From the NCBI RefSeq assembly GCF_030694375.1, contig NZ_JAUXYL010000041.1, positions 124,001-188,000 of the forward strand: a stretch of DNA of 64,000 nt, in the 5' to 3' direction. Source of the stretch: Algoriphagus sp. (GTDB taxonomy: Bacteria > Bacteroidota > Bacteroidia > Cytophagales > Cyclobacteriaceae). Below the pieces are notes generated by a model. That model searched no databases. It had not been told where the DNA came from and was given only the letters and a program-made list of their open reading frames with translations. Below are positions 2,539-42,926 of the stretch, piece after piece (the first letter of the stretch is position 1; the number at the start of each line of letters is the position of its first letter). The translations under genes were made by a program, and so were the position numbers.

Positions 2539-5500
2539 ATGAAGCAAAGAAACATCCTTTTACTTCTGTTTCTTTCCCTTTGTTCCTGTCAACAGGAAGA
2601 AAAAAACACTGCCCCACTTTTTCGCCTCCTCTCTGAGGATGAAACAGGTATTGCGTTTATAAATGACCTCACCTATACCGAAAAAGTAAACCCCTATACG
2701 TTTCGGAATTTTTATAACGGTGCCGGTGTGGCGCTTGGAGACATCAATAATGACGGACTGATCGATATTTTCCTGGCAGGCAACCAAACATCCAACAGAC
2801 TTTACCTTAATCTGGGTAATCTGAAATTCAAAGACATTACAGACCAAGCCGGATTAAACTCCACCGGCTATTGGTCCACTGGAGTAAGCATGGCAGACAT
2901 CAACGGAGATGGATTGCTGGACATTTATGTTTGCAAATCAGGACCTCCGGGAGGGGAGAAACGTCACAATGAACTCTTTATCAACAATGGCAACCTGACT
3001 TTCACCGAAAGTTCCAAAGAATACGGACTTGCCGAAGAAGGCCTGAGCCAGCACGCCGTTTTCTTCGATTTTGACAAAGACGGGGATCTGGATATGTACC
3101 TTCTCAGCAATTCCGGGCGGTCTGTTGGAATCTACGACCTCCGTGAGGGACAGCGTGAAATCCGGGATCCCGAGGGTGGAAATAAACTCTTCAGAAACGA
3201 CGGCAACAAATTCACCGACGTTTCCGAAGCAGCAGGAATATTTGGAAGTAGCATTGGTTATGGACTCGGGGTTACCGTCGCCGATCTGAATGATGACAAC
3301 TGGCCGGACCTGTATGTCTCCAATGATTTTTTTGAGCGGGATTACCTCTATCTCAACAATCAGGATGGGACATTTTCCGAAGTCCTTCCCGAATTGCTCT
3401 CCGAAATCAGCATGGGAAGTATGGGGGCTGACATTGCGGATCTGGATAATGACAGCCGTCCGGATATTTTTGTCACAGAAATGCTCCCGAAAGATCTTGC
3501 CCGAGTCAAAACCAAAACACCCTTTGAAGATTGGGACAAATATCAGGCAAGCCTAAAAGCCGGATATCATCATCAGTTTACCCGAAACACCCTCCAACGA
3601 AATTTAGGATTTCAACCGGGAACCCAAATCCCTGTTTTCTCCGAAGTCAGCCGGATGGCAGGAGTCGAAGCCACAGACTGGAGTTGGGGCGCTTTGATTT
3701 TTGACATGGACAATGACGGACAGAAGGATATCTTCGTCGCAAACGGCATTGTAAAGGATCTAACCGATTTTGACTTTGTGGACTTTTATGTCAATAGTCA
3801 ACAACGGGTATCGGAATTCATCAGAGACTCGGTTCTATTAACCAAAATGATTGATGCATTTCCTTCCAATCCGCAGCAAAACTTCCTGTTCAAAAACAAA
3901 GGCAATTGGAATTTTGAAAACCTCTCCCAAAGCCTCGGATTGGATCAGCTTACTTTTAGCACCGGGTCTGCTTACGGAGATTTGGACAATGACGGGGATT
4001 TGGACTTGGTCATAAACAACCTGAACGAACGGACCTTCATCTATCAAAACACAAGTACCGATTCAAAAAATGGCAATTATTTAAGCATTGAACTTGGAAA
4101 TGCGTTTGGATCAAAAGTCACGGCCTTCTTCGGAAAACAAAAATTCTATCAGGAGTACCAACCTGTCAAAGGGTATATGTCATCGGTAGATCCACGGGTC
4201 CATTTTGGTTTGGGGAAAATTGAAAAATTAGACTCCCTTCAGATTCTTTGGCCAAGCGGAAAAACAAGAACGCTCAAAAATATCCAAAGCAATCAAACAC
4301 TCAAACTCTCACCTGGAATAGAGGATAAAATTCAACCAACATTCCAGGAAGCTCAAAATCAGCCTTTCCTCCAAAGTGAATCAAAGCTCCCTTTTCAGCA
4401 CAAAGAGAGTGATTTTATCGACTTCGATCGTGACCGCTTGCGGTTTTGGATGATCAGTAATGAAGGACCAAAGGCTGCAAAAGCAGACCTGAACAGAGAC
4501 GGATTGGATGATCTGTTTATTCCCGGCGCAAAAGGCCAAGCCTCTGTTTTGCTTACCCAAAACTCAAGTGGGAAATTCACCCCACAGCTAGCAGACCTTT
4601 TTGCAATGGATGCTATTTCAGAAGATGTCACTGGACATTTTTTTGATGCTGACGGAGATGGCAAACCTGATTTGCTTGTAGGCAGCGGAGGTATCGAGTT
4701 TGGAGACTATTCACCTGCCTATGCAGATCGACTTTACCTCAATGATGGTAAAGGCAACTTTCAGAAATCTCCACAAGCCTTCTCCCCTACCCCTACGGCT
4801 TTCATACTTTCCCAAGATGTCGATGGAGACGGAGATTTGGATTTGATTGTAGGAAGTCGGGCGATACCCTTTGCCTACGGGATTCCTGCGGGACTTCAGA
4901 TTTGGGAAAATGACGGCAAAGGAAGTTTCAAGGAAATTTCCCGAAATCTAAATCCCGAACTTTCTAAGCTTGGAATGCTGACTTCCGGGGCTTTGGCAGA
5001 TTTGGATGGAGACGGAGAGTTGGAACTCATTTTTACGGGGGAGTGGATGCCTGTCCGGATTTTCGCTTTTCAGGACAATAAATTACTGGAAAAAACGGCT
5101 GAATTTGGTTTTGAAAATACCGCAGGGCTATGGAATTGCCTTTATGTGGCAGATATCAATGGGGACGGAAAACCTGATATTCTTGCCGGCAACCATGGCT
5201 TAAACTCCCGACTTCGCACTTCAGAAAGCTCAAAGCTACGCATGCTGATTAATGACTTTGATCAAAATGGAGCCTTGGATCATATCCTTTCCAAGTATGA
5301 AGATCAAAAAACAATTCCCTGGGTTCTCAAACCCGCTTTACTTCGTCAAATTCCTGCTTTACGAAAGCAACTTTTAACCTATGAATCCTACCAAAATAAG
5401 TCCTTGGAAGAACTTTTCCCTGAAGCAGTTTGGGCAAATTCCTTAACTTTGGGCGCTGACATTCTGGAAACTAGCCTATGGATAAATGGAGGTCAGGGAA

Positions 5501-14982: not shown

Positions 14983-16119
14983 TTACTCAACATTCAGCTC
15001 AAATTCAAGCACGAAAACCAAGGCATCAGGATTAGCCAGAATCGCTTTTTCCAATGCTGAACCTGCAAATGCTGGATCATCGCGGTTCAACTGATCCGTA
15101 CTGACTAAAGCCGCAAATCGGGATCCATCCACTCCGATCACTTTGGGGAATGGCTGATTATCAAAACTCAAGTCATTTTTCAGGTTTTCAATTTTAAACG
15201 TACTGCCTTTCCCATTTGAAGAAAAAGCCAATCGAGGCGTATTCTGAATAAAATACAGGAAAATAAATTGCTCAGGTGTACTTTCAAAAATGGTGAAAAG
15301 TGAAGGTTGACTTACCAAACTCTCTTGGAACAGCTTGAAGCCAGCCTGATCTTTTACAAAATCTGTGTTTTTAGGTTTTTTTACTAACTCTCCTTCGTAT
15401 TCAATTCCGCTAAAGGATTCGATTACCCCATTATCCACACGGATAATCTCCGGATTGAAGGAAGAGTTAAAGAGAACTTGTACCTCATTTCCATCCACCA
15501 GTTTGTGGAAAGGGTTTGGAGGACTCAATAGAAACTCAATCGAATTGGGTAAGTGTGCAGAAATCAATTTGCCTGTTTCATCTACAAAGGCAAGAGCATT
15601 CTCCTGTCCTCCTCCCGTAAGTCCAACAAAACCCGTTTTTGTCTTGGCAAAGCGCCGAAAGGGAATTTCCAGTTTGATGTGCTCGAGTTGTTGAAAAGTG
15701 CCGGATGAGTAAGAAATAGAAACGATTTTTCGCCCGATCCCGTCCAAGACATAAAGCATATCCCCATCCAGCCAAAAGTCATTTACTGCCCGAACTTCCT
15801 GCGGCCCTTCTCCTTTCTTAAGGGGAATTTCGAGTGCTTTTCCCGATTCCTTATTAAAAACATAAACTGACTGAGAAAGGGAAAAGTCTCCGAGTATCAT
15901 CAGCTCATCCGAGAAATCGATCCGATCCGCTTCAAAAGGAACTAGTCTAGGATCTCCTGTTAGTGGTCGAAACTGAACTTCTCTCACCAGAGAACTCACG
16001 GTCCGGTTCTCTGAGGATTCGGGAGGGACTACTATTTTTAAATCATTTTTTCTAGATGTATTACAAGAAAATAGAAGAATCAAAAACAAAAACTTATAAA
16101 AACAAAAGTATTTTGACAT
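14983..16119 (-). CDS. 6-bladed beta-propeller lipoprotein
   Basis: 378 residues from the ATG at 16119, chosen because it opens a lipoprotein signal (MSKYFCFYKFLFLILLFSC); a longer upstream frame adds 16 non-signal residues. The mature protein reads as a beta-propeller of the Bacteroidota 6-bladed family. It has recurring blocks such as LMILGDFSLSQSVYVFNKES, KKGEGPQEVRAVNDFWLDGD and YVLDGIGRKIVSISY, typical of blades 1-3. Role is unknown in this family; surface or periplasmic binding is presumed. It lies 66 bp downstream of a cysteine-rich secreted peptide gene on the same strand. This peptide-then-propeller pair is repeated at 16970-18420, and the two are best read as one unit. Confidence 0.85.
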   Translation of the reverse strand: MSKYFCFYKFLFLILLFSCNTSRKNDLKIVVPPESSENRTVSSLVREVQFRPLTGDPRLVPFEADRIDFSDELMILGDFSLSQSVYVFNKESGKALEIPLKKGEGPQEVRAVNDFWLDGDMLYVLDGIGRKIVSISYSSGTFQQLEHIKLEIPFRRFAKTKTGFVGLTGGGQENALAFVDETGKLISAHLPNSIEFLLSPPNPFHKLVDGNEVQVLFNSSFNPEIIRVDNGVIESFSGIEYEGELVKKPKNTDFVKDQAGFKLFQESLVSQPSLFTIFESTPEQFIFLYFIQNTPRLAFSSNGKGSTFKIENLKNDLSFDNQPFPKVIGVDGSRFAALVSTDQLNRDDPAFAGSALEKAILANPDALVFVLEFELNVE

Positions 16120-16185
16120 ATAAATGAATTTTAGTGAGACATAAATTCCCCCATAACCATTTACCATGGGGGAAGGGGAATAAAA

Positions 16186-16410
16186 TTAAGGACAAGTGGT
16201 AGATTCACCACATAAGCAACTCACTCCATCTCCATTTTGATGACAAACTTGGCGACTTGAACCTGTAAAATAATTGCAAATAAAAATTTCAACCTTACAT
16301 TCAAAGCCACCAATGCCTCCTCCTGGCCCACCAACACCCTGCGCCTTTACATCATTTGTTCCAAATGCCATTGACCCCAAAAAAGCCAATCCAAAGATTA
16401 ATTTTTTCAT
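16186..16410 (-). CDS. Cysteine-rich secreted peptide 1 (NVEALA-like)
   Basis: A 74-residue peptide with a clear Sec signal (MKKLIFGLAFLGSMAFGT...VKAQ) and a ~50-residue mature part that is glycine-rich at first (GVGGPGGGIGG) and then holds six cysteines. The signal and the GVGG start are shared with the peptide at 18223-18420. No enzyme family fits. The layout resembles the short NVEALA-type secreted proteins of Bacteroidota, though the NVEALA motif itself is absent. The even cysteine count suggests disulfides. Upstream lies a 156-bp leader shared with the other copy; downstream is a propeller lipoprotein. Reality as a gene is supported by conservation between copies. Confidence 0.8.
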   Translation of the reverse strand: MKKLIFGLAFLGSMAFGTNDVKAQGVGGPGGGIGGFECKVEIFICNYFTGSSRQVCHQNGDGVSCLCGESTTCP

Positions 16411-16566
16411 TTTTTAAAGAGTTAGATTTTACTAAAAAGTTTTTGGCCCAAAAACGGCTTCTTTCTGAAGTTGAAAATAATCTAATGAGCTAGTATCAAA
16501 TGCCCTAGTACTAGTTTGAAATTTTATTAAAAAATACTTGGACGGCGTTTTTTTTTTTGAACGGTC
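16411..16566 (-). promoter_or_regulatory. Conserved 5' leader of peptide 1
   Basis: These 156 bases upstream of peptide 1 align over their whole length with 18423-18578 upstream of peptide 2. Most conserved are the segment next to the ATG, a TTGGGCC block, a small CTTC/GAAG hairpin, and a far box. In gene direction the box reads CCGTTC, eleven A, then CGCCGTC; the A-tract is at 16548-16558. Both copies keep exactly eleven A. It probably contains the promoter and a bent-DNA or regulator site. Confidence 0.65.
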
Positions 16567-16869
16567 ACTATTCGCAATTGTCTTCTTGCAATCCATAAAA
16601 GCTTAGCTTTTCCTCTGTGCCCTTGAAAAATGTCTCCTGTGCCTAGATGGACTGAAGTTCATAATCAAGTTCACTCAAGTCTTCAATTAATCTTCCTTTG
16701 CGATCCTTTGCATGCTTTGCGGTGAAAAAACAAAAATCTTTAGCTTTTCCTCCGTGCCCTTGAAAAAAGTCACCCGAAGTGAAAAAGTATTAGGTTCCAA
16801 TAACAAAATACAATCTCCCCTCCTCTCCTCAGTGTCCGTGGTAAAACTTCTTCACGGTAAAAAAGAAAT
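16567..16869. repeat. Intergenic repeats between peptide leader and nadD remnant
   Basis: No gene. It contains two copies of a TTAGCTTTTCC-T/C-CTGTGCCCTTGAAAA-type repeat (about 16611-16630 and 16741-16766). A CTTTGCGAT/CTTTGCATG/CTTTGCGG run lies near 16696-16723, and a GTCCGTGGTAAAAC block near 16835. The same kinds of elements lie between peptide 2 and nadD (18600-18771), as expected if the spacer was duplicated together with the genes. Confidence 0.5.
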
Positions 16870-16920
16870 TTATTGATAAAGCTTTCGATCCAAAATATAC
16901 CTCTCCACTTTCTCGGGGTA
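16870..16920 (-). pseudogene. Remnant of nadD 3' end
   Basis: Read on the minus strand, this segment encodes YPEKVERYILDRKLYQ followed by a stop. The intact NadD ends PDKVEEYILDRKLYQ and a stop (gene end at 18772). Thirteen of the last fifteen residues agree, and the bases around the stop (TTTATTGATA-A/C-AGCTT) are nearly identical. Upstream of the match the sequence is unrelated to nadD and runs into the end of the propeller gene at 16970. It marks the junction of a tandem duplication that included the tail of nadD. Confidence 0.8.
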
Positions 16921-16969
16921 TAGGTTAATTAACTTGTTCCTAAATTTCACTGGAAATAGATTGTTTATC

Positions 16970-18058
16970 TCAATAATCAAATCTAACCAAATTGGGCTCC
17001 TCATCAGTGGTCACTCCATAAATCTTCCTATTATTTTCATCAATTGAAAAACCAAATAATGGGTAGTCTAACTGATACTGATTCAAGATTTTTCCCTTAT
17101 AATCAAATTCAAAAATTCGATTTAAGTTTGTCATATCACTAATTTGACTGTAGGGTTTACCTTTAAACAGGACAAAGAAAGAGGCTTTCCCTGCATAGAC
17201 ATCCCCATAAATCGTGGGTGAATTAGGATTTAAAGAGGGCATTTGATAACCATCCCAATATCCAATTTCAAAATCAGGTATATCCTTTTCTGACCCAAAA
17301 AGTGTTAATATTTTATGATCTTTAATTTGAATTATATCAATATAATTTGCTCTTAATCCCACTTTTATTGCATATTTCTTACTGGAATTAATTTTAAGTG
17401 GTCCTTGAAAAAGACTACTCACAAGGTTTGCATCCAATTCCTCCTCCTTATATCCATTTGGCAATTCTTTTCCTTTGATCATATCTTTCCAATCACCAAA
17501 TATCCCTAAAGTATCTCCGGAATTAGTTAAATGAAGGTATTTAGACCAACCATCAACTGCATTCCCTAGGAAAGAAGAGTCAGAGGTAAAAGTCGCTTTA
17601 GTTATAAAATAAGCAGTCTCTGGAGCACGAAACTGATCTTCGGCAAGTCGATTGGTATCTAATAAATCAAACTTTGAAAACAATCGTACCTCAGGATCAA
17701 ATGTCAAAATTTTATTAGGTTCATCTAACTCCTCAATCTGAGTAATTACTGTTATTTCTCCCGGACCTAATCCATCTATTCCCTTGGATTGTACATAGGA
17801 CTCCGATACAAGATCGATTATATGAAATTTATCATTTTGTACATTTTTCCTTTCAAAGACAATGGCTTTAGAGTCTGTAACCAAAATACCTCTTGGATTG
17901 ATGATTTGCGGAAAGTCGAATTTGTGCCCTTTTAGGAGGACTGGTTCTGGAAGATCCTTTTCCGTGAATCGAATAGAATCAGATTGAAAGTTAGGTGTAC
18001 TACAGCCTAATTGAATAAGAACAACTAATGGACATAGATTGCGAAATTTAATTTTCAT
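16970..18058 (-). CDS. TolB-like 6-bladed propeller lipoprotein
   Basis: 362 residues from the ATG at 18058, which begins the lipoprotein signal MKIKFRNLCPLVVLIQLGC. A frame extending to 18211 would add 51 residues read through a palindromic repeat and is rejected. The body shows propeller features of the Bacteroidota TolB-like family. GLGPGEITVITQI lies near residue 95, and the C-terminal strand motif PLFGFSIDENNRKIYGVT runs to the terminal PNLVRFDY. Function in this family is unknown. It is the partner of the peptide at 18223-18420 and corresponds by position to the propeller at 14983-16119, from which it has diverged strongly. Confidence 0.83.
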   Translation of the reverse strand: MKIKFRNLCPLVVLIQLGCSTPNFQSDSIRFTEKDLPEPVLLKGHKFDFPQIINPRGILVTDSKAIVFERKNVQNDKFHIIDLVSESYVQSKGIDGLGPGEITVITQIEELDEPNKILTFDPEVRLFSKFDLLDTNRLAEDQFRAPETAYFITKATFTSDSSFLGNAVDGWSKYLHLTNSGDTLGIFGDWKDMIKGKELPNGYKEEELDANLVSSLFQGPLKINSSKKYAIKVGLRANYIDIIQIKDHKILTLFGSEKDIPDFEIGYWDGYQMPSLNPNSPTIYGDVYAGKASFFVLFKGKPYSQISDMTNLNRIFEFDYKGKILNQYQLDYPLFGFSIDENNRKIYGVTTDEEPNLVRFDY

Positions 18059-18097
18059 AGAATTTTTATTTGATTCTTCAAGTCCATATATAATATC

Positions 18098-18155
18098 GCA
18101 TGTTACCCCGATAGCTATGGGGGCTATCCTCTGGCAGACACAGCAGGGGTCATGC
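18098..18155. repeat. CCCCGATAGC palindromic element, copy A
   Basis: Outer arms GCATG-(TT)-ACCCC and GGGGTCATGC face each other across 58 bp. Inside is a near-palindrome CCCCGATAGCTATGGGGG followed by CTATCCTCTGGCAGACAC. A second element with the same inner hairpin lies at 49547-49615. It sits between the peptide gene and the propeller gene of this unit. Confidence 0.5.
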
Positions 18156-18222
18156 ATGATTTCGTAAGTCTTTTCGAGTATAAAATCGAATAAGGAGGGA
18201 AGGCCCCTCATTAATTAAGATA

Positions 18223-18420
18223 TCATGGACAAAAACTGATATCAGGGGTCCAAGTCGACTCGGCAACTAATCCATATTTCGGGTGTTCACAATCAAGCTC
18301 TGATAAACAACAGACACCTCCATAAGAATTTCCGCCTCCGCCCACTCCTTGGGCTTTGATTGCAGTACTAAACATGGTTATTGACCCTATAAAGGCCAAT
18401 CCAAAGATTAATTTTTTCAT
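18223..18420 (-). CDS. Cysteine-rich secreted peptide 2 (NVEALA-like)
   Basis: 65 residues: Sec signal MKKLIFGLAFIGS...IKAQ, then mature GVGGGGNSYGGVCC and a short tail with four cysteines in total, ending FCP. The first 25 residues closely match peptide 1, including the bases just downstream of the ATG. The mature part keeps only the glycine-rich start and an even number of cysteines. A conserved signal with a variable exported core is what one expects of secreted effector, signal or toxin-type peptides, but the function is not known. The propeller lipoprotein follows at 18058 after a 164-bp gap carrying a palindromic repeat. Confidence 0.8.
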   Translation of the reverse strand: MKKLIFGLAFIGSITMFSTAIKAQGVGGGGNSYGGVCCLSELDCEHPKYGLVAESTWTPDISFCP

Positions 18421-18578
18421 AGTTTTTTAAAGAGTTAGATTTTACTAAAAAGTTTCTGGCCCAAAAACGACTTCATCCTGAAGCTGAAATTAATCTAATG
18501 GCCTAGTCAAAAGAATGCAAGATCTAGTTTTAAAATTTACCATGAAAATACTTAGACGGCGTTTTTTTTTTTGAACGG
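18421..18578 (-). promoter_or_regulatory. Conserved 5' leader of peptide 2
   Basis: Second copy of the leader described for 16411-16566. The A11 tract (18562-18572 on the complementary strand) and its flanks CCGTTC and CGCCGTC are kept exactly, and the ATG-proximal ~50 bases are almost identical. The middle (about 18500-18545) has diverged. Non-coding conservation at this level between otherwise diverged units suggests a regulatory role. Confidence 0.65.
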
Positions 18579-18599
18579 CCAAAAAGATCTTGAATTAGG

Positions 18600-18771
18600 C
18601 ATACCCAAAACAAAAAAGCTTTCGCTTTTCTCTGTGGCCTCTAAAAGGTTAAATATGAAATCGCACCAAAGGTTCTCAGGAAATAATGCCCCTTGAAATC
18701 TCCTATTCTCCGTGGCCTCTGTGGTAAAATTTTCTTTGCGAACTTTCGCGTGCTTTGCGGTTAAAAAAGAT
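18600..18771. repeat. Intergenic repeats downstream of nadD
   Basis: No gene. It holds an AAAGCTTTCGCTTTTCTCTG element (from about 18616) and a CTCCGTGGCCTCTGTGGTAA block. A run of TTTGCGAACTTTCGCGTG and CTTTGCGG units precedes TTAAAAAAG just after the nadD stop. All are degenerate repeats of the kind also found at 16567-16869. Confidence 0.5.
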
Positions 18772-19338
18772 TTATTGATACAGCTTCCGATCCAAAATAT
18801 ACTCCTCCACCTTATCCGGCAGTAAGTATTTCACCGAGTGGCCTTCTTGGATGGACTTGCGGATAAAAGTTGCTGAAATATCCAAAAGTGGGGCTTCGAT
18901 GGTTTTGATTTTGGGATGTTCAAAGCCCTTGGCTTCACCCGGTCGGGGGTAGACAAAAATCTCAAAATTATCCAGAATCGCCTGATGGTTTTTCCACTTT
19001 TGGAAGTGAGTCAGATTATCCGAACCCAGAAAAAGACAAAACTGATGCTGTGGATATTGGTCGCTCAGATACGTGAGCGTATCAATGGTGTAGCTTGGCT
19101 TCGGCATCCGAAACTCCACATCACTCGCCCGAAAGTGGTAATGATCCGCAATCGCAAGTTCGACCATTCGCAGCCGGTCAAATTCGTGGATCAGGGATTG
19201 TTGCTTTTTGAATGGATTCTGTGGACTGACCACAAACCAAACTTCGTCCAGGTCGGTGCGGTCGTACAATACATTTGCGATGATCAGGTGTCCGACGTGG
19301 ATCGGATTGAAGCTTCCGAAATACAGTCCAACCTTCAT
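18772..19338 (-). CDS. nadD: Nicotinate-nucleotide adenylyltransferase
   Basis: 188 residues. It transfers AMP from ATP to nicotinate mononucleotide, giving deamido-NAD in cytoplasmic NAD synthesis. The nucleotidyltransferase signature GSFNPIHVGHL is at residues 8-18, and the C-terminal substrate motif SATFIRKSIQEG (ISATxIR) is near 154-166. Length is normal. The gene begins two bases after the gmk stop and closes a probable operon with sigma factor, anti-sigma factor and gmk. Its last 16 codons are duplicated as a remnant at 16870-16920. Confidence 0.96.
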   Translation of the reverse strand: MKVGLYFGSFNPIHVGHLIIANVLYDRTDLDEVWFVVSPQNPFKKQQSLIHEFDRLRMVELAIADHYHFRASDVEFRMPKPSYTIDTLTYLSDQYPQHQFCLFLGSDNLTHFQKWKNHQAILDNFEIFVYPRPGEAKGFEHPKIKTIEAPLLDISATFIRKSIQEGHSVKYLLPDKVEEYILDRKLYQ

Positions 19339-35708: not shown

Positions 35709-38189
35709 TTGAGAAAAGGAATAAGAAAATTAGGTTGGCTAAAAGGGATAAAGCCATTTTTTAAAGTACTCTTTCTGGCAACTTCTTGCCTATTGATTTC
35801 ATTTTCAAGCGCTAAAGATCCTTTGGAAGAGATCATTGCAGGGTTTCAGCGCTACATTTCTGAGCAACCTCAGGAAAAGGTTTATTTACACACCGACAGA
35901 CAAACCTATGCCGCAGGTGAAACCATTTGGCTGAAAGCCTACCTCACAGCCGGACCTTTCCACATCCCCTCCTCGCTGAGTAGCACTGTCTATGTGGAGT
36001 TGATCGGCTCGGAGGGAGAACTAATCCAGCAACAAAAGCTTTTCACACCTGATGGTTTTGCCTCCGGTCAACTTGAGCTTTCAGATTCACTCCCCTCAGG
36101 TAATTATCTACTGCGAGCCTACACCAATTGGATGCGAAATTCAGGTGAGGAATATTTTTTTCACCGACCCTTAAAAATTTGGAACAGTCAAGTCATCCCC
36201 GAGCCTTTTACGACTCCAGAAACTGAGCTTGCTACTGGAAAAGTGGACATTCAATTTTTTCCCGAAGGGGGAAATTTGGTCCAGGGGATTCTCAGTAAAG
36301 TGGCTTTCAAAGCCATTGGCGAAAATGGACTTGGAAAAGCTGTAAAGGGAAAAATTCTGGAAGGAGATGCCGTCATCACTGAGTTTGAAAGCAATTCACT
36401 TGGAATGGGAGTTTTTCCACTTTTACCTGAAAAAGGAAAAACCTATCAGGTCCACCTAGAAGGCTACAAAATGGATTTGGACCTGCCCGCTGCCCTGGAA
36501 TCAGGCCTAGTCATGTCAGTGAACAACTCCGGCAAGTCTGAAGATATTGTGGTGAAAATCCAATCTTCGGAGAACTCTCAAATCTCCAAAATCAGTCTTT
36601 TGGCACAGACTCGCGGTTTGGTCTGTGCATCGAGTCGGGCCGACTTGGCAAATCGAGTGGTATTTGTACGAATTCCTAAGAAAGCATTTCCGACAGGAAT
36701 CGCTCAAATCACCGCTTTGGATGAAAACGGAATTCCTTTGGCAGAGCGCTTGGTCTTCATCGACCATCAGGATCAGCTCTCACTTTCTGCTGTCCCTGAC
36801 AAATCCAACTATGCCCCCAGAGAACCGGTACGAATTGACATCACCGCAAAAGACAAGACTGGACAGCCAGTGGTAGCCAACTTCTCCCTGAGTGTTTTTG
36901 ATAAGAGCCAAGTGCCTTTTGATGAGGACCACGAAACCATCCAATCCAACCTATTGCTTTCATCCGAACTGCAAGGACAAATTGAAAAGCCGGGGTACTA
37001 TTTCAATCCTGAAAATCCGGATCGGGAAGTTGCACTCGATTACCTCCTGCTCACTCAAGGTTGGCGAAAATTTTCACTCAAAAAGGCACTGAGCGGAGAA
37101 CTCCCAAAACCCGCTTACCGAATCGAAAAAGGACTTACGATCAGCGGGCAACTCACAGATCCAAAAACCAACAAACCCATTGCCAGCAGTACCGCCTCGT
37201 TTCTTTCGCTTTTTCCTGTTTCTGAATCCAGGACCACCTCTAGCGATGCGGAGGGTAAGTTTGAATTCGAAGACCTCATCTATTTTGATTCTGCTGAGGT
37301 CATGATTCAGGGGAAATTGAAAAATGGAAAATCCACTGCTACTGTTTCTGCTGATCACACTCGTAGGACTCCCACACTTAGGTATCCGATATTACCCTTC
37401 TTTTCCACTCCAACTGTACTCGAAAGGGAATTTCTAATCAAAAGCATGGAGCGAAAAAATATAAGCAGAGCATTTGATTTTGACGAAGACCTTATTGCCC
37501 TAGAGGTAGTGGAAGTTACCGGGACAAAAATCATAGATCAATACACCGGTCCAAGAATCTATGGAGGTGGATCGGCAAAAATCACTGTGGCAGACAATCC
37601 TGCCTTAGAAAACCTTCAGCATCCGTTGGACTTGGTCAAAGGAAGAGTCGCAGGAGTGCAAGTTTGGGGCAGTGGTGATATCTGGAGCATTTTGATCCAG
37701 GGCGTAAGCTCCATCAACAGTAGTGTTGAGCCCCTGATCATGGTGGATGACATTCCGGTTCCGATCGAAGGCTTAAGTTCAATTCCTGTTTTGGAAATTG
37801 AAAGTGTATCGGTATGGAAAGGGCCGGATGCCGCGATTTTTGGTTCTCGGGGAGCGAATGGTGTATTGGGTTTCTACACCAAAAGAGGCAAAGCGCAGTC
37901 CAGCACCCCAAATCAATCGGATCACCCACCCGTGCCAAGCGGATATCAGATTGAAAAGGAATTCTATTCTCCAAAGTATGAAGCTAAGGAACCTCCACAG
38001 CCTAGACCCGATCAGCGAGTGACACTCTTTTGGGCACCGGACGTCCAAACTGATTCCACGGGAAGAGCCACAGTTCTATTTTATAATCATGACCTTGAAT
38101 CCGTCCTCCGGGGTGAACTCGAAGGGATCAGCTGGAAAGGCGAGGTGGGAGTTTTGAGATTTCAAATTGGAGGAAAAATCGAGAGATAA
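35709..38189 (+). CDS. MG2-like and TonB-plug domain protein without barrel
   Basis: 826 residues. No ATG is available near the N-terminus; TTG at 35709 is the likely start and gives a signal sequence (FFKVLFLATSCLLISFSSA). An alpha-2-macroglobulin MG2-type sandwich begins at about residue 45 (EKVYLHTDRQTYAAGETIWL). A carboxypeptidase-regulatory-like segment lies near 475-545 (ISGQLTDPKTNKPIASS). At about 630-725 sits a complete TonB-receptor plug (DLVKGRVAGVQVWGSGD, MVDDIPVP, VLEIESVSVWKGPDAAIFGS, RGANGVL). No beta-barrel follows. Such plug-without-barrel proteins are common in Bacteroidota, with role unknown. The DUF4221-like gene starts 6 bp after it, so they are co-transcribed. Confidence 0.85.
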   Translation: MRKGIRKLGWLKGIKPFFKVLFLATSCLLISFSSAKDPLEEIIAGFQRYISEQPQEKVYLHTDRQTYAAGETIWLKAYLTAGPFHIPSSLSSTVYVELIGSEGELIQQQKLFTPDGFASGQLELSDSLPSGNYLLRAYTNWMRNSGEEYFFHRPLKIWNSQVIPEPFTTPETELATGKVDIQFFPEGGNLVQGILSKVAFKAIGENGLGKAVKGKILEGDAVITEFESNSLGMGVFPLLPEKGKTYQVHLEGYKMDLDLPAALESGLVMSVNNSGKSEDIVVKIQSSENSQISKISLLAQTRGLVCASSRADLANRVVFVRIPKKAFPTGIAQITALDENGIPLAERLVFIDHQDQLSLSAVPDKSNYAPREPVRIDITAKDKTGQPVVANFSLSVFDKSQVPFDEDHETIQSNLLLSSELQGQIEKPGYYFNPENPDREVALDYLLLTQGWRKFSLKKALSGELPKPAYRIEKGLTISGQLTDPKTNKPIASSTASFLSLFPVSESRTTSSDAEGKFEFEDLIYFDSAEVMIQGKLKNGKSTATVSADHTRRTPTLRYPILPFFSTPTVLEREFLIKSMERKNISRAFDFDEDLIALEVVEVTGTKIIDQYTGPRIYGGGSAKITVADNPALENLQHPLDLVKGRVAGVQVWGSGDIWSILIQGVSSINSSVEPLIMVDDIPVPIEGLSSIPVLEIESVSVWKGPDAAIFGSRGANGVLGFYTKRGKAQSSTPNQSDHPPVPSGYQIEKEFYSPKYEAKEPPQPRPDQRVTLFWAPDVQTDSTGRATVLFYNHDLESVLRGELEGISWKGEVGVLRFQIGGKIER

Positions 38190-38195
38190 ATTTGT

Positions 38196-39344
38196 ATGAA
38201 AAATCTATTCAAGTTACTTGTTGTTGCTTCAGTCCTTTCTTGTAATTCCAAAACAGAAGATGTGAGTCTTTCACTTCAAGTAATCGAAACAATCAAAATC
38301 TCTTTGGGTTCCACAGTCAACCCAAATCGGACAACTTATCAATACATCAATTCTGATTCGGGAGAATTTTTAGCACTTCAGAACAAATCAGTACATGGAA
38401 TTGAATTCTTCAATCTGAAAACTGGGGCTCATAATAAGAAAATAAAACTTCAAAGAGAATGCCCTAATGGTTCGGGTTCAGTCAACGGCTTTCGGATATT
38501 TTCAAATGACTCGCTATTGGTTGCCTCTTATCCTCAAAAACTGATGCTCTTCAATTTTGAAGGGATAAAAACAAGTGAATTCTCGATTAAAGACACCCAA
38601 AACGATGTGAATTACATTTCTTCCAACAGCGAAATTCCCTTTTTATTTGATGGAAAAAAGGTGTTTGGAGCACAACCATTTTTTAGGAATTTCTTTGACA
38701 TGACTGCTTCTGATCTGGGCAAATACAGTCATATTTATCAACTGGACATGGAATCTATCAATCCAGAGGCCGAATGGCTGCCCATCTCCAATCCCGAGGA
38801 CACTTGGAAGGAAGGAAAAAAAGTATCAAAATTTACCTGGACAGATCGGGGAGACAGTATTTTGGTGTCTCCCTACAACGATCACCGAATTTGGGTTATT
38901 TCCAAGAAAAGGAAAGAATTACTAGAACTGGTAGAAGCAAAGGCACCAGAGGTGAATCAATTTCACATAATCAAGGGATTACCCTCCGGAGATCAGGGAA
39001 TCATAGAAGAACTAGAATCCGACCGATACGAACTTCTTCTTTATGATGAATTTCGAGCCGTATTTTACCGATTCTATTTTGTAGGTATAGATGTCAACGA
39101 CTTTGAAGTTCATTATCGGGAATTGTATTCAAATCGACCCAAAATAGGATTAGTGGTTTTGGACGCCAATCTGAAAATTATTGGAAACCATCTTTTTGAA
39201 ACCCATCAAATCGAACCCTGGAACTACTTCGTAGGTCGCAAAGGTCTCTACGTCTCTACCAATAATCCTAACCGGGAAGATTTTGATGAGAATTACCTGA
39301 GGTATGATATTATCCGATTTGAGGGATTGGAGTATGAGGATTAA
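38196..39344 (+). CDS. DUF4221-like propeller lipoprotein, copy 1
   Basis: 382 residues with lipoprotein signal MKNLFKLLVVASVLSC. The mature protein is beta-rich and carries blocks shared with the copy at 39900: YINSDSGEFLALQNKS, FLFDGKKVFGAQPFFRN, WTDRGDSILVSPYNDHRIWV and the terminal IEPWNYFVG and YVSTNNPNREDFDENYLR. This fits the DUF4221 family of Cytophagales, probably a propeller; assignment from memory. The last 95 bases are almost identical to those of the paralogue although the rest has diverged. Six bp after the MG2/plug gene. Confidence 0.8.
   Translation: MKNLFKLLVVASVLSCNSKTEDVSLSLQVIETIKISLGSTVNPNRTTYQYINSDSGEFLALQNKSVHGIEFFNLKTGAHNKKIKLQRECPNGSGSVNGFRIFSNDSLLVASYPQKLMLFNFEGIKTSEFSIKDTQNDVNYISSNSEIPFLFDGKKVFGAQPFFRNFFDMTASDLGKYSHIYQLDMESINPEAEWLPISNPEDTWKEGKKVSKFTWTDRGDSILVSPYNDHRIWVISKKRKELLELVEAKAPEVNQFHIIKGLPSGDQGIIEELESDRYELLLYDEFRAVFYRFYFVGIDVNDFEVHYRELYSNRPKIGLVVLDANLKIIGNHLFETHQIEPWNYFVGRKGLYVSTNNPNREDFDENYLRYDIIRFEGLEYED
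39246..39340 (+). repeat. 95-bp near-identical direct repeat, copy 1
   Basis: The 3' end of the first DUF4221-like gene matches 40953-41047 at 94 of 95 positions (one A/C difference at 39317), whereas flanking codons show several silent and replacement changes. Confidence 0.9.
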
Positions 39345-39556
39345 GCAAAGATTTGCAACTACTAGTTAAACCCAACTTAAATACATTACAAAACGAATAT
39401 TTAGCCACTTAAACATTTTATTAAAATATTTTTAACAATTAGTTTGTTTTTTTTTTTGCGACTCCTATATTGCTGGTGATCTTATTGGCCAAGTGATCAG
39501 GGAAACCGAAATCCGCCCACGCAAAGGGATTTTTAACCAATAAATTCGTTATCAAG

Positions 39557-39751
39557 ATTAAAAAGTTAAAGTTATTTGTTTTAGGAGCATCCATTTTTGG
39601 GATGACCGCCTTAGGCGTCTCGTATTTCGGGGCAAGTGAGGCTGAGGCACAAGGAGGTCCAATTGCCCAATGTTCCTGGAACGGAAACGACTGCTTTGAT
39701 CCCATAGAGCACAATATGTGTATTTGTGAGGAAAAAGAAGAAGATAATTAG
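39557..39751 (+). CDS. Cysteine-rich secreted peptide 3 (NVEALA-like), non-ATG start
   Basis: Reading back from the TAG at 39749, the frame gives KKLKLFVLGASIFGMTALGV followed by SYFGASEAEAQ, a standard signal of the NVEALA-type secreted peptides. A 32-residue mature tail follows (GGPIAQCSWNGNDCFDP, then two more cysteines as MCIC and an acidic end). The codon where ATG is expected, before AAA AAG TTA AAG, is ATT (39557-39559). No ATG, GTG or TTG precedes it in frame back to the stop at 39494. Either ATT initiates, or the start was lost by a G-to-T change. An internal ATG at 39602 would remove most of the signal. Lies between two DUF4221-like lipoprotein genes; the 212 bp upstream is AT-rich and gene-free. 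Confidence 0.7.
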   Translation: MKKLKLFVLGASIFGMTALGVSYFGASEAEAQGGPIAQCSWNGNDCFDPIEHNMCICEEKEEDN

Positions 39752-39899
39752 GATTGAATTCAATTCTAGTTGGTAATCCTCTTTTTAAATTTAGAAGAGG
39801 ATTACCTTAACTCAACTATTTAAAATCTACTAAGAGCCTGGAAAAACTAACCTAAAAATTAAGAAAATTTCCTGGTTTTACAAAATCAAAATTCTGTTA

Positions 39900-41051
39900 A
39901 TGAAATATCTCATTGTTGTCTTCATTTCAATTGTTTTAGGAGGTTGTAATTTATCACAGGAAAAAAATTCTTTTAAGGCCTACACTTATAATCAATTTGA
40001 AATACAATTACCTGAGTCATTCGCTCCATCTTCGCATAAAAGCCAATACATAGAATCAGATTCTGGAGAATACCTTGCTATGGTAAATAAAGCCCAACGA
40101 AAAATTGAGCTATTTAGCTTTAATACACTCGCTTCGGAACATCAAATTTATTTACCACTAGACGGTCCAAACAAAATAGGTAGTGAAGTAGGATTTCGCA
40201 TCATTAATCCCGATTGTATCTTTATCGCAACAATACCTCCAGCAATTAAGATAATTGATTTCAAAGGTAATCTCAAAAGGACAATTCCAGTCCGCGACCC
40301 TGATAATGGAGTCAATTTTCTAACCTCTGATAACCGCCTTCCATTTCTTTTCGGAAATCGAGTCATTTTTGGTGCTCAACCATTTTTCAAAAATATTTAT
40401 GAGACTTCTGAAAGCGATATTAAATCTTCAAAACATATCTATAAAGTACAGTTAGAAAATATTCAGGAAAAAGTGGAATGGCTTCCAATTTACCACCCTG
40501 CTGGTACTTGGGAAAAAGGCAGAAAAAGTATGGAATTGACTTGGGCAGATTTTGGAGACTCAATCATTGTCTCTCCGGTAAGCGATCACCGACTTTGGAT
40601 TATTTCAAAAAGATCCGAAAAATTACTCGGATACGAGGAAGTCAAATCAAACTTTGTAAATCAGTTCGCTGTATTAGATCAATTGCCATATGGTGATGGC
40701 GGTATGATTAGGGCCCTTAATACTGATCGGTATGAACTACTCATATCTGATACCTATCGAAATGTTTTTTACAGATTTTTCTTCCGCGGATTTGAATTAG
40801 AGGAGTTCGAAACCTACTCTGTAAGGGATCTTTTCGGAAATCGTCCCAAAATGGGAATAATGGTCTTAAACCAACAACTAGAAGTCATTGGAGAACATTT
40901 ATTTGAGAATTTTCAAATCGAACCTTGGAACTACTTTGTAGGCAAAAAAGGACTCTACGTCTCTACCAATAATCCTAACCGGGAAGATTTTGATGAGAAT
41001 TACCTGAGGTATGATATTATCCGCTTTGAGGGATTGGAGTATGAGGAATAG
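39900..41051 (+). CDS. DUF4221-like propeller lipoprotein, copy 2
   Basis: 383 residues, lipoprotein signal MKYLIVVFISIVLGGC. It aligns end to end with the lipoprotein at 38196 (shared YIESDSGEYLAMVNKAQRKI, LPFLFGNRVIFGAQPFFKN, WADFGDSIIVSPVSDHRLWI and the common terminus). Similarity over most of the length is moderate, but the last 32 codons are practically identical in bases. It follows peptide 3 by 148 bp and overlaps the thioredoxin-like gene by 11 bases. Inferred: envelope protein working with the secreted peptide. Confidence 0.8.
   Translation: MKYLIVVFISIVLGGCNLSQEKNSFKAYTYNQFEIQLPESFAPSSHKSQYIESDSGEYLAMVNKAQRKIELFSFNTLASEHQIYLPLDGPNKIGSEVGFRIINPDCIFIATIPPAIKIIDFKGNLKRTIPVRDPDNGVNFLTSDNRLPFLFGNRVIFGAQPFFKNIYETSESDIKSSKHIYKVQLENIQEKVEWLPIYHPAGTWEKGRKSMELTWADFGDSIIVSPVSDHRLWIISKRSEKLLGYEEVKSNFVNQFAVLDQLPYGDGGMIRALNTDRYELLISDTYRNVFYRFFFRGFELEEFETYSVRDLFGNRPKMGIMVLNQQLEVIGEHLFENFQIEPWNYFVGKKGLYVSTNNPNREDFDENYLRYDIIRFEGLEYEE
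40953..41047 (+). repeat. 95-bp near-identical direct repeat, copy 2
   Basis: Second copy of the segment at 39246-39340, with a single mismatch. The local identity against diverged flanks suggests gene conversion between the paralogues. Confidence 0.9.
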
Positions 41052-41460
41052 TCCGGTTGTCCTTTATTTAATTCTGCTCGGGCTGATTGCCTGCAAGCCA
41101 AAAGGCAAAAGTGAGGTAGCCGAAATTTTGGGTATTGAAGAGCCAAAGGACTGGATACTGGTTATCCATCCTGAAGGATGTAAGACCTGCTTGGAAAGCT
41201 TGTATGATGACTTGGCGTCACTCACTTCAAATGCCGACGCAGCAATCGTAATCCTTGCCAAAAGCTCGAAAAATCTACGAATGATTCCATTGATTCAAGA
41301 CTCCCCCCTTCCTTTGTATCTCGACGAATATAAGGTTTTAATCGAAAAAGGGGTTCTGGAACTTCAAGATCAAATTTTACTATTCAAGGATGGCAGCGTG
41401 GAAAAATTTGATATTCTTAACTACGAGAAAGTTTTTCATTCCATTGCCTCCTACAAGTAA
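41041..41460 (+). CDS. Thioredoxin-like CXXC lipoprotein
   Basis: 139 residues from the ATG at 41041, which starts the lipoprotein signal MRNSPVVLYLILLGLIAC; a start at 41011 lies inside the previous gene. C47-K-T-C50 sits after the strand WILVIHPEG, the position of the active-site CXXC of thioredoxin folds, and a cis-proline-like LPLYLD follows later. It is short for a TlpA protein. The frame overlaps the preceding lipoprotein by 11 bases, so the genes are coupled. Possibly a periplasmic or surface disulfide oxidoreductase for the cysteine-rich peptide of this cluster; that link is inference. Confidence 0.72.
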   Translation: MRNSPVVLYLILLGLIACKPKGKSEVAEILGIEEPKDWILVIHPEGCKTCLESLYDDLASLTSNADAAIVILAKSSKNLRMIPLIQDSPLPLYLDEYKVLIEKGVLELQDQILLFKDGSVEKFDILNYEKVFHSIASYK

Positions 41461-41595: not shown

Positions 41596-42753
41596 CTATC
41601 TTCTAAAAAAATATTCCTTCCAGTTCATGATAGTAATTCCTTCACTTCGGGATTGGGGTTGAGTACCTGCGTACAGCAGCGTTCCCATTTTTTTCTGACT
41701 CAAATTCATCCAGAATCTCAGGTTTTTGAAATAATCGGAGTTGATGGTTTTCCCAGATTTAATTTCCATGGGAAATAAGTCTAATCCCTCATCGATCAGC
41801 ACATCAATTTCATGTCCGGTCTTATCTCTCCAGAAAAACAGATTGATCTCTTTTGCTTGATTCGTCCTTTCTTTGATCAATTCCGATACCACCAAATTTT
41901 CAAACAGTGCCCCCCGCAAAGGATGAAAATCCATCTGTGCAACAGTACTGATTCCCAAAAGAAAACAAACCAACCCTGTATCTAAGAAATAGATTTTTGG
42001 ACGTTTGACGATAATCTTATTGAAGTTTTGAAAATGGGGTCTTAATAGGTAAATCAAAAAACTACTTTCCAAAATACCGATCCAAGATTGAATCGTCTTG
42101 GTATCTACCCCGACTTCGTTTCCGAGCGAAGTCATATTCAATTCTTGGCCTACCCTTCCGGCCAAAAGGCGAATAAATCGCTCAAAAACAATTAAATCAG
42201 TTATATTCTTGATCTGCCTTACATCCCGCTCAATATAAGTCCGCAGGTAATTTGGAAACCATAAATCCATAGGAATACCAGGCTCAAAGAGCGGTGGATA
42301 CCCCCCCTTAATCATTAATTCATCTTCCGAAGGAATGCCAGCTTTTTCTGGGTAAAGTTCTGTCAAAGAAAAAGGAAGCAGTTGCAAATACCCTACTCTT
42401 CCTGCCAGACTCTGAGTGATGGACTGCTGCAAGAGGAAATTGTTTGAACCTGTAAGGATAAATTGTCCTGGCTGAGGACTTGAATCTACCACCCCTTGCA
42501 AGTAAGAAAACAGGTCGGGCGTGCGCTGTACCTCATCCAAAATAGCCCCTTCCGGGAATTCACTTAAAAATCCTCTTGCGTCCTCAAGCGCAAACCTCCT
42601 TTGATCAGGATCTTCTAAGGATACATAGGGTTTATGGGGAAAAATGGACCGAACGAGCGTGGTTTTGCCAGATTGACGTGGACCAACTACAGCTACTACT
42701 TTAAAATAGCTTGCCAATTCTTGAAGCTTTTCGGTTGCCCTCCTTGAAATCAT
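41596..42753 (-). CDS. AAA ATPase with DUF4143 domain
   Basis: 385 residues from the ATG at 42753 (MISRRATEKLQELASYFKVV); an upstream frame to 42885 would read through a perfect palindrome and is rejected. N-terminal AAA_14-type ATPase: Walker A GPRQSGKTTL, Walker B-like GAILDEVQRTPDL, sensor ILTGSNNFLL. C-terminal DUF4143: ENLVVSELIKERTNQ and FFWRDKTGHEIDVLIDEGLDLFPMEIKSGKT, a nuclease-like D-E-x-K core. These proteins occur as scattered accessory genes; function unknown, sometimes linked to toxin-antitoxin or defence. It lies between prfC and a remnant of the prfC 3' end, which suggests it arrived by insertion. Confidence 0.9.
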   Translation of the reverse strand: MISRRATEKLQELASYFKVVAVVGPRQSGKTTLVRSIFPHKPYVSLEDPDQRRFALEDARGFLSEFPEGAILDEVQRTPDLFSYLQGVVDSSPQPGQFILTGSNNFLLQQSITQSLAGRVGYLQLLPFSLTELYPEKAGIPSEDELMIKGGYPPLFEPGIPMDLWFPNYLRTYIERDVRQIKNITDLIVFERFIRLLAGRVGQELNMTSLGNEVGVDTKTIQSWIGILESSFLIYLLRPHFQNFNKIIVKRPKIYFLDTGLVCFLLGISTVAQMDFHPLRGALFENLVVSELIKERTNQAKEINLFFWRDKTGHEIDVLIDEGLDLFPMEIKSGKTINSDYFKNLRFWMNLSQKKMGTLLYAGTQPQSRSEGITIMNWKEYFFRR

Positions 42754-42764
42754 AATCAAAAATA

Positions 42765-42799
42765 TGGAAAAATATGGAATTGGATTCCATATTTTTCCA
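42765..42799. promoter_or_regulatory. Perfect 15-bp palindrome before the ATPase gene
   Basis: TGGAAAAATATGGAA (42765-42779) and TTCCATATTTTTCCA (42785-42799) around a 5-nt centre, ending 11 bp before the ATPase start codon. It could be an operator, for instance for autoregulation, or an RNA hairpin in the leader. ATATGGAA also occurs once more directly in the arm. Confidence 0.65.
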
Positions 42800-42853
42800 G
42801 TTTTTTCAATCAACTCAAGTACCGAAAAAGCTTTTTGGCAAGAAAAAGTCCGG

Positions 42854-42871
42854 CTCCGATAGCAATCGGAG
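42854..42871. repeat. CTCCGATAGC hairpin
   Basis: CTCCGAT and ATCGGAG (7 bp) around AGCA. The CCGATAGC core recalls the elements at 18098-18155 and 49547-49615. Lies between the prfC terminator and the ATPase leader. Confidence 0.45.
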
Positions 42872-42884
42872 GAGAAGCAGGACA

Positions 42885-42926
42885 ATTAATAAAAACCCTC
42901 CAAGGGTTCCGAACCCTTGGAGGGTT
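42885..42926 (-). terminator. Intrinsic terminator of prfC
   Basis: A perfect 16-bp inverted repeat with a one-base centre: AACCCTCCAAGGGTTC (42894-42909) and GAACCCTTGGAGGGTT (42911-42926). It is followed on the minus strand by TTTTTATT. It begins 7 bp after the prfC stop, and is the intact member of the CCAAGGGTT palindrome family. Confidence 0.9.

Follow-up and report, generated by a model that had tools for sequence, protein, structure and literature searches.

In the C-terminal toxin–immunity cassettes of contact-dependent inhibition (CDI) and polymorphic toxin systems, a common upstream part carries a variable toxic tip, and the tip is exchanged together with its immunity gene. NVEALA peptides have a short leader followed by a cysteine-containing tail, like the peptide discussed below. 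For the type VI secretion system (T6SS) of Vibrio cholerae, Kirchberger et al. (PMC5361080) describe displacement of modules with retention of old immunity genes, and another study (PMC4573289) reports that in B. fragilis a lipoprotein gene comes after a TIGR04149 peptide. The locus described here lies at 38–41 kb of a 64,000-nt stretch, the window to which all coordinates refer, from the 5.0-Mb genome of Algoriphagus sp. It consists of two genes for DUF4221 propeller lipoproteins, a gene for a cysteine-rich peptide between them and a gene for a CXXC lipoprotein, and looks like a peptide weapon or signal, not described before, together with the matching immunity protein or receptor. We tentatively read it as a polymorphic cassette in which the secreted peptide would be an effector and the propeller lipoprotein would confer immunity.

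The four genes stand in line on the + strand, as an earlier note on this DNA had described: the propeller lipoprotein w1 (38196–39344), the peptide (39557–39751), the second propeller lipoprotein w2, which we regard as the peptide's partner (39900–41051), and the CXXC lipoprotein (41041–41460). Both DUF4221 assignments hold, with PF13970 scores of 66.4 bits for w1 and 48.7 bits for w2 against a cut-off of 23.4 (E 4.4e-18 and 1.1e-12). Comparison with homologues places the start of the CXXC gene at 41041 (MRNSPVV..., lipobox LIAC), which bears out the 11-base overlap with w2, and the four cysteines claimed for the peptide are present in its frame. The peptide has a leader at 39557–39649 and a predicted mature part, QGGPIAQCSWNGNDCFDPIEHNMCICEEKEEDN, from 39650, the cleavage site being deduced from the Q-rule.

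The evidence that carries our reading comes from related genomes. The named ones among them, all Algoriphagus, are A. boritolerans (G158), A. faecimaris (G240), A. hitonicola (G421), A. aquimarinus (G227), A. resistens (G423), A. ratkowskyi (G422) and strain PAP.12 (G413). At the same place in A. boritolerans, between flanks whose proteins are 92–95% identical (a GMC gene and a housekeeping gene that we take to be prfC), there is one cassette, and its propeller is the counterpart of w1 (85% identity) and not of w2 (49%). At the DNA level the w1 gene is 84.5% identical to that propeller gene; it is intact and has no peptide. A three-way DNA alignment of the window, A. boritolerans and genome G437 gives identities that alternate along the locus. 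The upstream region and leader (39418–39649) are 91% identical to A. boritolerans and 54% to G437, whereas the mature peptide (39650–39751) is 57% identical to A. boritolerans and 80% to G437. The same inversion is seen for the gap with its hairpin (26% and 55%, respectively) and for the propeller body (39900–40950; 55% and 70%), while the propeller tail (40951–41051) returns to 91% against A. boritolerans and 73% against G437, and the remaining CXXC gene is 80% identical to A. boritolerans and absent from G437. The proteins repeat the pattern: against A. boritolerans 26 of 31 leader residues and 14 of 32 core residues are identical, against G437 13 of 31 and 28 of 33. The mature peptide and the propeller body thus share one history and their surroundings another.

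The resident 5′ segment, upstream region plus leader, can be followed by local alignment to A. boritolerans from 39418 to 39652 (89.9% identity), where the match stops within one codon of the predicted boundary between leader and mature peptide; at the 3′ end the resident sequence (propeller tail and CXXC gene) spans 40951–41460. Between them lies the putatively exchanged segment of mature peptide, hairpin and propeller body (39650–40950, the end being approximate). This mosaic is the decisive result: mature peptide and propeller body behave, as judged from these alignments, as a cognate pair, in the manner of polymorphic effector–immunity cassettes. We infer that the two were swapped in as a unit and that the resident propeller, w1, was pushed upstream and kept. 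Behind w1, the segment 39334–39369 may be a stub of a CXXC gene start (MRIKQRFATTS followed by a stop), too short to be firm. The idea that the four genes form one complex was abandoned after the comparison with A. boritolerans: of the coherent unit proposed in the earlier note, the set of peptide, propeller and CXXC gene is conserved across species, and the two DUF4221 proteins are not an obvious functional pair.

A second mosaic is found in A. ratkowskyi, where two contigs each have a cassette at one end. Over 796 bp, covering the propeller tail and the CXXC gene, the two cassettes agree at 94.5%, and over 151 bp around the peptide start and ahead of it at 88.7%; their propellers are 56% identical and their peptides differ. 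As in polymorphic cassettes, a variable part, here the putative effector, is exchanged with its partner between common flanks, and as in bacteriocin and microcin loci, a peptide with a leader predicted by the Q-rule to be removable stands next to a partner gene. Orphan immunity-like genes are also kept, namely w1 and a peptide-less DUF5128 propeller gene in G439, the immunity role of both being putative. The locus differs from CDI and polymorphic toxins in that the common part is only a Sec-type leader of ~31 aa and a thioredoxin-like gene follows. It resembles the V. cholerae T6SS modules (PMC5361080) in the recombinational exchange and in the old immunity-like gene beside the new pair, and differs from them in having no T6SS or large effector, the candidate effector being a peptide of ~33 aa with a leader and its partner a propeller lipoprotein.

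Distances between peptides and between propellers are correlated (Mantel r 0.63, p 4e-4, n=10; r 0.58, p 0.003, n=9), while within the genus those between peptides and CXXC proteins are not significantly so (r 0.20, p 0.13, n=9). The last 45 residues of the propeller are nearly invariant in the genus and the body is variable. In A. faecimaris (L065, ~4909–5130) an in-frame stop directly follows the peptide leader, and the propeller and CXXC genes remain open; they are 96% and 98% identical, respectively, to those of A. hitonicola, whose peptide is intact. Also in favour of the effector–immunity reading are the ratio of nonsynonymous to synonymous substitution rates (dN/dS) of 0.10 between the orphan w1 and its A. 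boritolerans counterpart, and the ATT that the window's peptide has in place of ATG.

The surroundings of prfC, which was placed in 49 of 49 genus genomes, have the character of an accessory spot. The prfC flank was examined in 20 genomes, chosen mostly for highest prfC identity and not as known carriers of the cassette, and was informative in 19 (the contig of G401 ended). Nine of these 19 have nothing between prfC and the next gene, presumably adenine-deaminase-like. The contents of the other ten are varied and include a peptide–DUF4221 pair (G445), a peptide with a DUF5128 propeller (G414), a peptide with an MG2-Plug gene (G198), MG2-Plug without a propeller, an AAA_14 gene, a metallophosphoesterase-like gene and others; in G439 an MG2-Plug gene is followed after 6 bp by the peptide-less DUF5128 propeller. 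G443 lacks window positions 38054–41454, nearly exactly the four-gene block, and has the MG2-Plug and AAA_14 genes. It is a related species, its GMC protein being 96% identical and its PrfC 92% over the full length; a value of 99% is confined to a C-terminal part of PrfC, 145 aa long. In G419 and G403 the cassette is located at a great distance from prfC.

The observation made in the earlier note is confirmed and extends further than was described there. The CXXC protein was searched in 245 family genomes and found at 13 places in 12 genomes, our own included; at all 13 its gene stands directly behind a DUF4221 gene, recognised with a profile made from the DUF4221 proteins of the own genome. 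Of the 12 loci that have upstream sequence, 11 have a peptide there, counting one cut by the contig end (L075), one split by a stop (L065) and one frameshifted (L069); none was found upstream in L068, and L073 stands outside the count. A census of DUF4221 genes drew on the own genome and G018, G020, G040, G043, G108 and G158. Open reading frames (ORFs) with a leader and at least three cysteines lie upstream of 26 of 99 DUF4221 genes, compared with 16 of 302 genes of other kinds (Fisher p 5.6e-8), the control positions giving 7/99 downstream and 4/99 in antisense. The detector finds a peptide for 6 of the 16 DUF4221 genes in the own genome. The census leaves out one listed place (G018 contig 33) and includes one locus each from G018, G020, G040 and G043 belonging to a separate set of 20 that was taken from the best PF13970 scores and is therefore biased. 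By eye, four of the 34 genes with a match of at least two cysteines are false positives (L116, L122, L144, L151); they are labelled as having none in the tree only and are retained in the census counts. Conversely, the detector missed the true peptides of G437 and L072 as well as the split peptide of L065, all of which were found by pattern or eye. Small CXXC lipoprotein ORFs follow 26 of 149 DUF4221 genes, a set that includes loci fetched for the CXXC gene or w2 (census alone: 10 of at most 99), against 2 of 545 other genes, both in stretches fetched for weak DUF4221 matches (L103, L142).

We also considered whether all DUF4221 genes have peptides, and rejected this: the arrays L011, L116, L128 and L151 contain no accepted peptide. 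Runs of five to seven DUF4221 genes occupy L011 6748–12445, L116 3719–12023 (with one gene reversed) and L128 3364–10450, and nearly all of their genes fall in a DUF4221 clade of their own.

The peptides of these loci usually follow the pattern C-x(n)-C-x(8-9)-C-x-C-E, preceded by a leader that mostly ends in A-x-A-Q; L072 departs from this. The description of the window peptide as NVEALA-like did not survive: its frame has no Pfam match up to E 1, so that membership of PF14055 was discarded despite the similar build; the single PF14055 match in the own genome lies elsewhere and below the cut-off (E 0.78), and a scan of 148 phylum genomes returned two matches, both below the cut-off. The double-Gly leader peptides of Bacteroidetes (TIGR04149 / Bacteroid_pep), as presented in PMC4573289 and PMC8939145, offer another comparison, for the own genome has two such peptides directly before DUF4221 genes in L014, one of them over the TIGR04149 cut-off. 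The window peptide differs from these by having a leader of the Sec type, and its cassette shows no modification enzyme. Besides its two double-Gly cysteine-rich peptide/DUF4221 pairs, L014 (3188–14419) encodes an ABC exporter of the C39 kind, HlyD, a VKOR/C39 protein that weakly matches thioredoxin, and LanC-like and glycosyltransferase-like proteins; as in bacteriocin loci, an exporter is present for these peptides, whereas none was recognised for the Sec-type peptide of the window. A further stretch, L099 6119–16100 of A. boritolerans, contains four double-Gly peptide/DUF4221 pairs, and three of its peptide cores have a C-C-CC-C-C spacing. Such spacing recalls cystine knots.

What kinds of protein accompany the peptide? 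The model of w2, built on a 75-sequence alignment (predicted local distance difference test, pLDDT, 92.8), best matches the DUF4221 structure 3s9j (BVU_1028 of Bacteroides vulgatus; E 7.9e-26, template modelling score 0.80), which has the same fold and a title that names no function, followed by many beta-propellers. The CXXC protein has no Pfam or NCBIfam match. Its AlphaFold2 model (pLDDT 82.9) shows a thioredoxin fold with the CKTC motif (codons 47–50, 41179–41190) at a helix N-terminus, so that the claim of a CKTC site behind a lipoprotein signal stands. VIA Z scores are 8.6 to FetE and 8.4 to ResA over ~115 residues, at identities of only 7 and 12% and with CKTC as a distinguishing motif; the Foldseek matches are weak singly (best E 3.1e-3), and only their agreement was used. 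In 17 homologues, down to 20% identity, C47, C50 and one Asp are the sole invariant residues, and the homologues in L071, L073 and L075 lack the presumed cis-Pro, unlike oxidoreductases of the ResA / TlpA type. By fold and placement of the CXXC, the protein qualifies as a thioredoxin-fold lipoprotein and is a predicted oxidoreductase.

Taken as an effector–immunity cassette, the locus might work as follows. The peptide would be cut at A|Q, acquire two disulfides in the envelope, leave the cell and harm related cells; the propeller would bind the cognate peptide and so shield the producer, and displaced propellers might be kept for protection against relatives that still produce the old peptide. 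Since the CXXC gene overlaps the gene of a propeller with a near-invariant tail, we suggest thiol chemistry on the propeller-caught peptide: the CXXC lipoprotein may dock on the conserved tail and reduce or shuffle disulfides of the peptide held there, a role in peptide maturation being less likely. A hairpin in the gap between peptide and propeller genes (39772–39806 in the window; gap fold z −4.3 by 100 single-base shuffles, as for all hairpin scores here) is a putative attenuator that may hold propeller expression below that of the peptide; z is −3 or lower in 9 of 12 such gaps, as expected of an attenuator. We chose the effector–immunity reading because it accommodates the common delivery part, the variable tip with its partner, the kept leftover partner and the empty alleles.

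Several observations weigh against this choice. The window's own peptide has no standard start codon: no in-frame ATG, GTG or TTG precedes Met 39602, and the ATG of A. boritolerans corresponds to ATT at 39557, so that one has to reckon with translation from a rare start, perhaps poor, or with a loss of function. Hairpins are missing from the gaps of A. aquimarinus (z 1.3) and of one locus of A. ratkowskyi (G422a; z 0.6). Between 33 and 46 kb no ORF of the window was recognised as a dedicated exporter, which leaves the exit of a periplasmic Sec-type peptide unexplained. The match resembling G437 begins at 39611, within the leader, and the match to A. boritolerans ends at 39652, so that the 5′ breakpoint can only be placed between these positions; no candidate donor exceeds 72% identity in the propeller protein, and whether the window lineage gained the segment or A. 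boritolerans lost it is a matter of deduction. The propeller and CXXC distances also correlate (r 0.49, p 0.014), as do those of peptide and CXXC over 13 family loci (r 0.52, p 3e-4), for which partial correlations are 0.33 between peptide and propeller and 0.09 between peptide and CXXC. The dN/dS of w1 covers time before any displacement too. In G143 the peptide and CXXC genes are both frameshifted, through decay or sequencing error, and in G403, where it is the propeller that is damaged, we found no peptide. About two thirds of the DUF4221 genes in the census, whole tandem arrays included, have no detected peptide. Most members being peptide-less, immunity cannot be the general role of the family; the earlier note's expectation of peptide neighbours for DUF4221 genes elsewhere fails chiefly in the tandem-array clade and holds in the clade of the cassette.

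The main rival predicts nearly the same genetics: the peptide could be a self-recognition pheromone and the propeller lipoprotein its cognate receptor, an exchange of the two changing the signalling group, comparable to the specificity groups of agr and Com. Cognate swapping and co-variation are equally expected of such a system, retained pheromone receptors would look similar to w1, and propeller folds do bind ligands, the Foldseek matches including the cobalamin-binding BtuG surface lipoproteins of Bacteroides. The earlier note's surface receptors thus survive as one of two live readings, and immunity accounts for the recombination pattern no less well. We nevertheless consider signalling less likely than immunity, though worth keeping in view, given that no regulator, anti-sigma factor or kinase was recognised in the cassettes (by eye, with no systematic scan), that a propeller without its peptide is kept intact, and that several pairs alternate in the double-Gly loci, as in bacteriocin loci.

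If instead the peptide were a structural or redox subunit of a housekeeping envelope complex with the propeller and the CXXC protein, their co-variation would be that of co-evolving subunits, and the conserved gene order and the CXXC invariant in 17 homologues would follow naturally. Such a complex is hard to reconcile with the retention of w1 without a peptide, the open partners of the broken A. faecimaris peptide, the presence or absence of the genes between species and the switch of ancestry near the mature-peptide boundary, and we consider it improbable. Least probable to us is the version of the earlier note, in which all four genes act together, a dedicated CXXC catalyst oxidising the peptide and surface receptors recognising it. 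It can draw on the census, where 9 of 10 DUF4221 genes with a CXXC neighbour are peptide-positive against 25 of 89 without one (Fisher 2.3e-4), and on the double frameshift in G143. The role of peptide-specific disulfide catalyst is left unsupported, with 25 of 34 detector-positive DUF4221 genes lacking a detected CXXC gene and the CXXC gene of A. faecimaris open despite the broken peptide, and w1 reads as a leftover and not as a partner.

The neighbourhood of the effector–immunity candidate contains further genes of related kinds. On the + strand 6 bp before w1 lies an 826-aa protein (35709–38189) in which only Plug and MG2 exceed the Pfam cut-offs. With no barrel model it does not qualify as a TonB-dependent receptor, so the barrel-less plug protein of the earlier note is there, with MG2 in addition; as a fixed part of the system it does not hold up, since its homologues at the same locus of other species lie upstream or downstream or are absent, sometimes with a peptide of their own, which makes it a variable accessory member. 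Similar cysteine peptides stand directly before MG2-Plug genes in L189 2510–6935 (G422) and L229 553–3325 (G198), and G422 has a further peptide before a TolB-like propeller. At the far edge of the block and outside the cassette, an AAA_14/DUF4143 ATPase (41596–42885, − strand) matches the PADLOC candidate defence family PDC-S01 (6.9e-104), and its homologues also adjoin prfC in G447, G178, G443 and G431; for the other proteins given to PADLOC, the two DUF4221 proteins, the CXXC protein and the Plug protein, there was no match.

Two other peptide/propeller units, linked to nadD, lie on the − strand of the window, in agreement with the count of three sets in 26 kb given previously. The second unit pairs a cysteine-rich peptide (16186–16410) with a 6-bladed propeller lipoprotein (14983–16167; PF17170), and the third a cysteine-rich peptide (18223–18420) with a TolB-like propeller (16970–18211; PF15869). 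Within 14983–18810 the two are 85% identical in DNA over ~200 bp (16370–16564 against 18380–18578), comprising the upstream region and the leader start, and 55 bp from the 3′ end of nadD recur at 16855–16908. They resemble the 38–41 kb cassette in combining a common leader with a variable core and propeller.

Among the papers listed, our literature search found no description of this peptide–propeller pairing, and none that mentions NVEALA or DUF4221, most subscription journals and bioRxiv being outside its coverage. With somewhat greater reserve than for the cassette itself, we suggest that it may belong to a competition or kin-recognition system, possibly Bacteroidota-wide, of disulfide-rich secreted peptides, each with its own beta-propeller lipoprotein (DUF4221, DUF5128 or TolB-like) and sometimes an MG2-Plug or thioredoxin-fold lipoprotein. 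Specificity would change by exchange of mature peptide and propeller body, displaced propellers would serve as orphan immunity, and peptides with Sec leaders and exported double-Gly peptides would use the same partner family. The mosaic identifies which peptide/propeller pairs to test in type strains of Algoriphagus, which are environmental and non-pathogenic. If the reading is true, such peptides would form an added source of disulfide-rich peptides with genetically encoded specificity, and the DUF4221, DUF5128 and TolB-like propellers, large uncharacterised families of the Bacteroidota, would gain a testable role in the binding of cognate secreted peptides.

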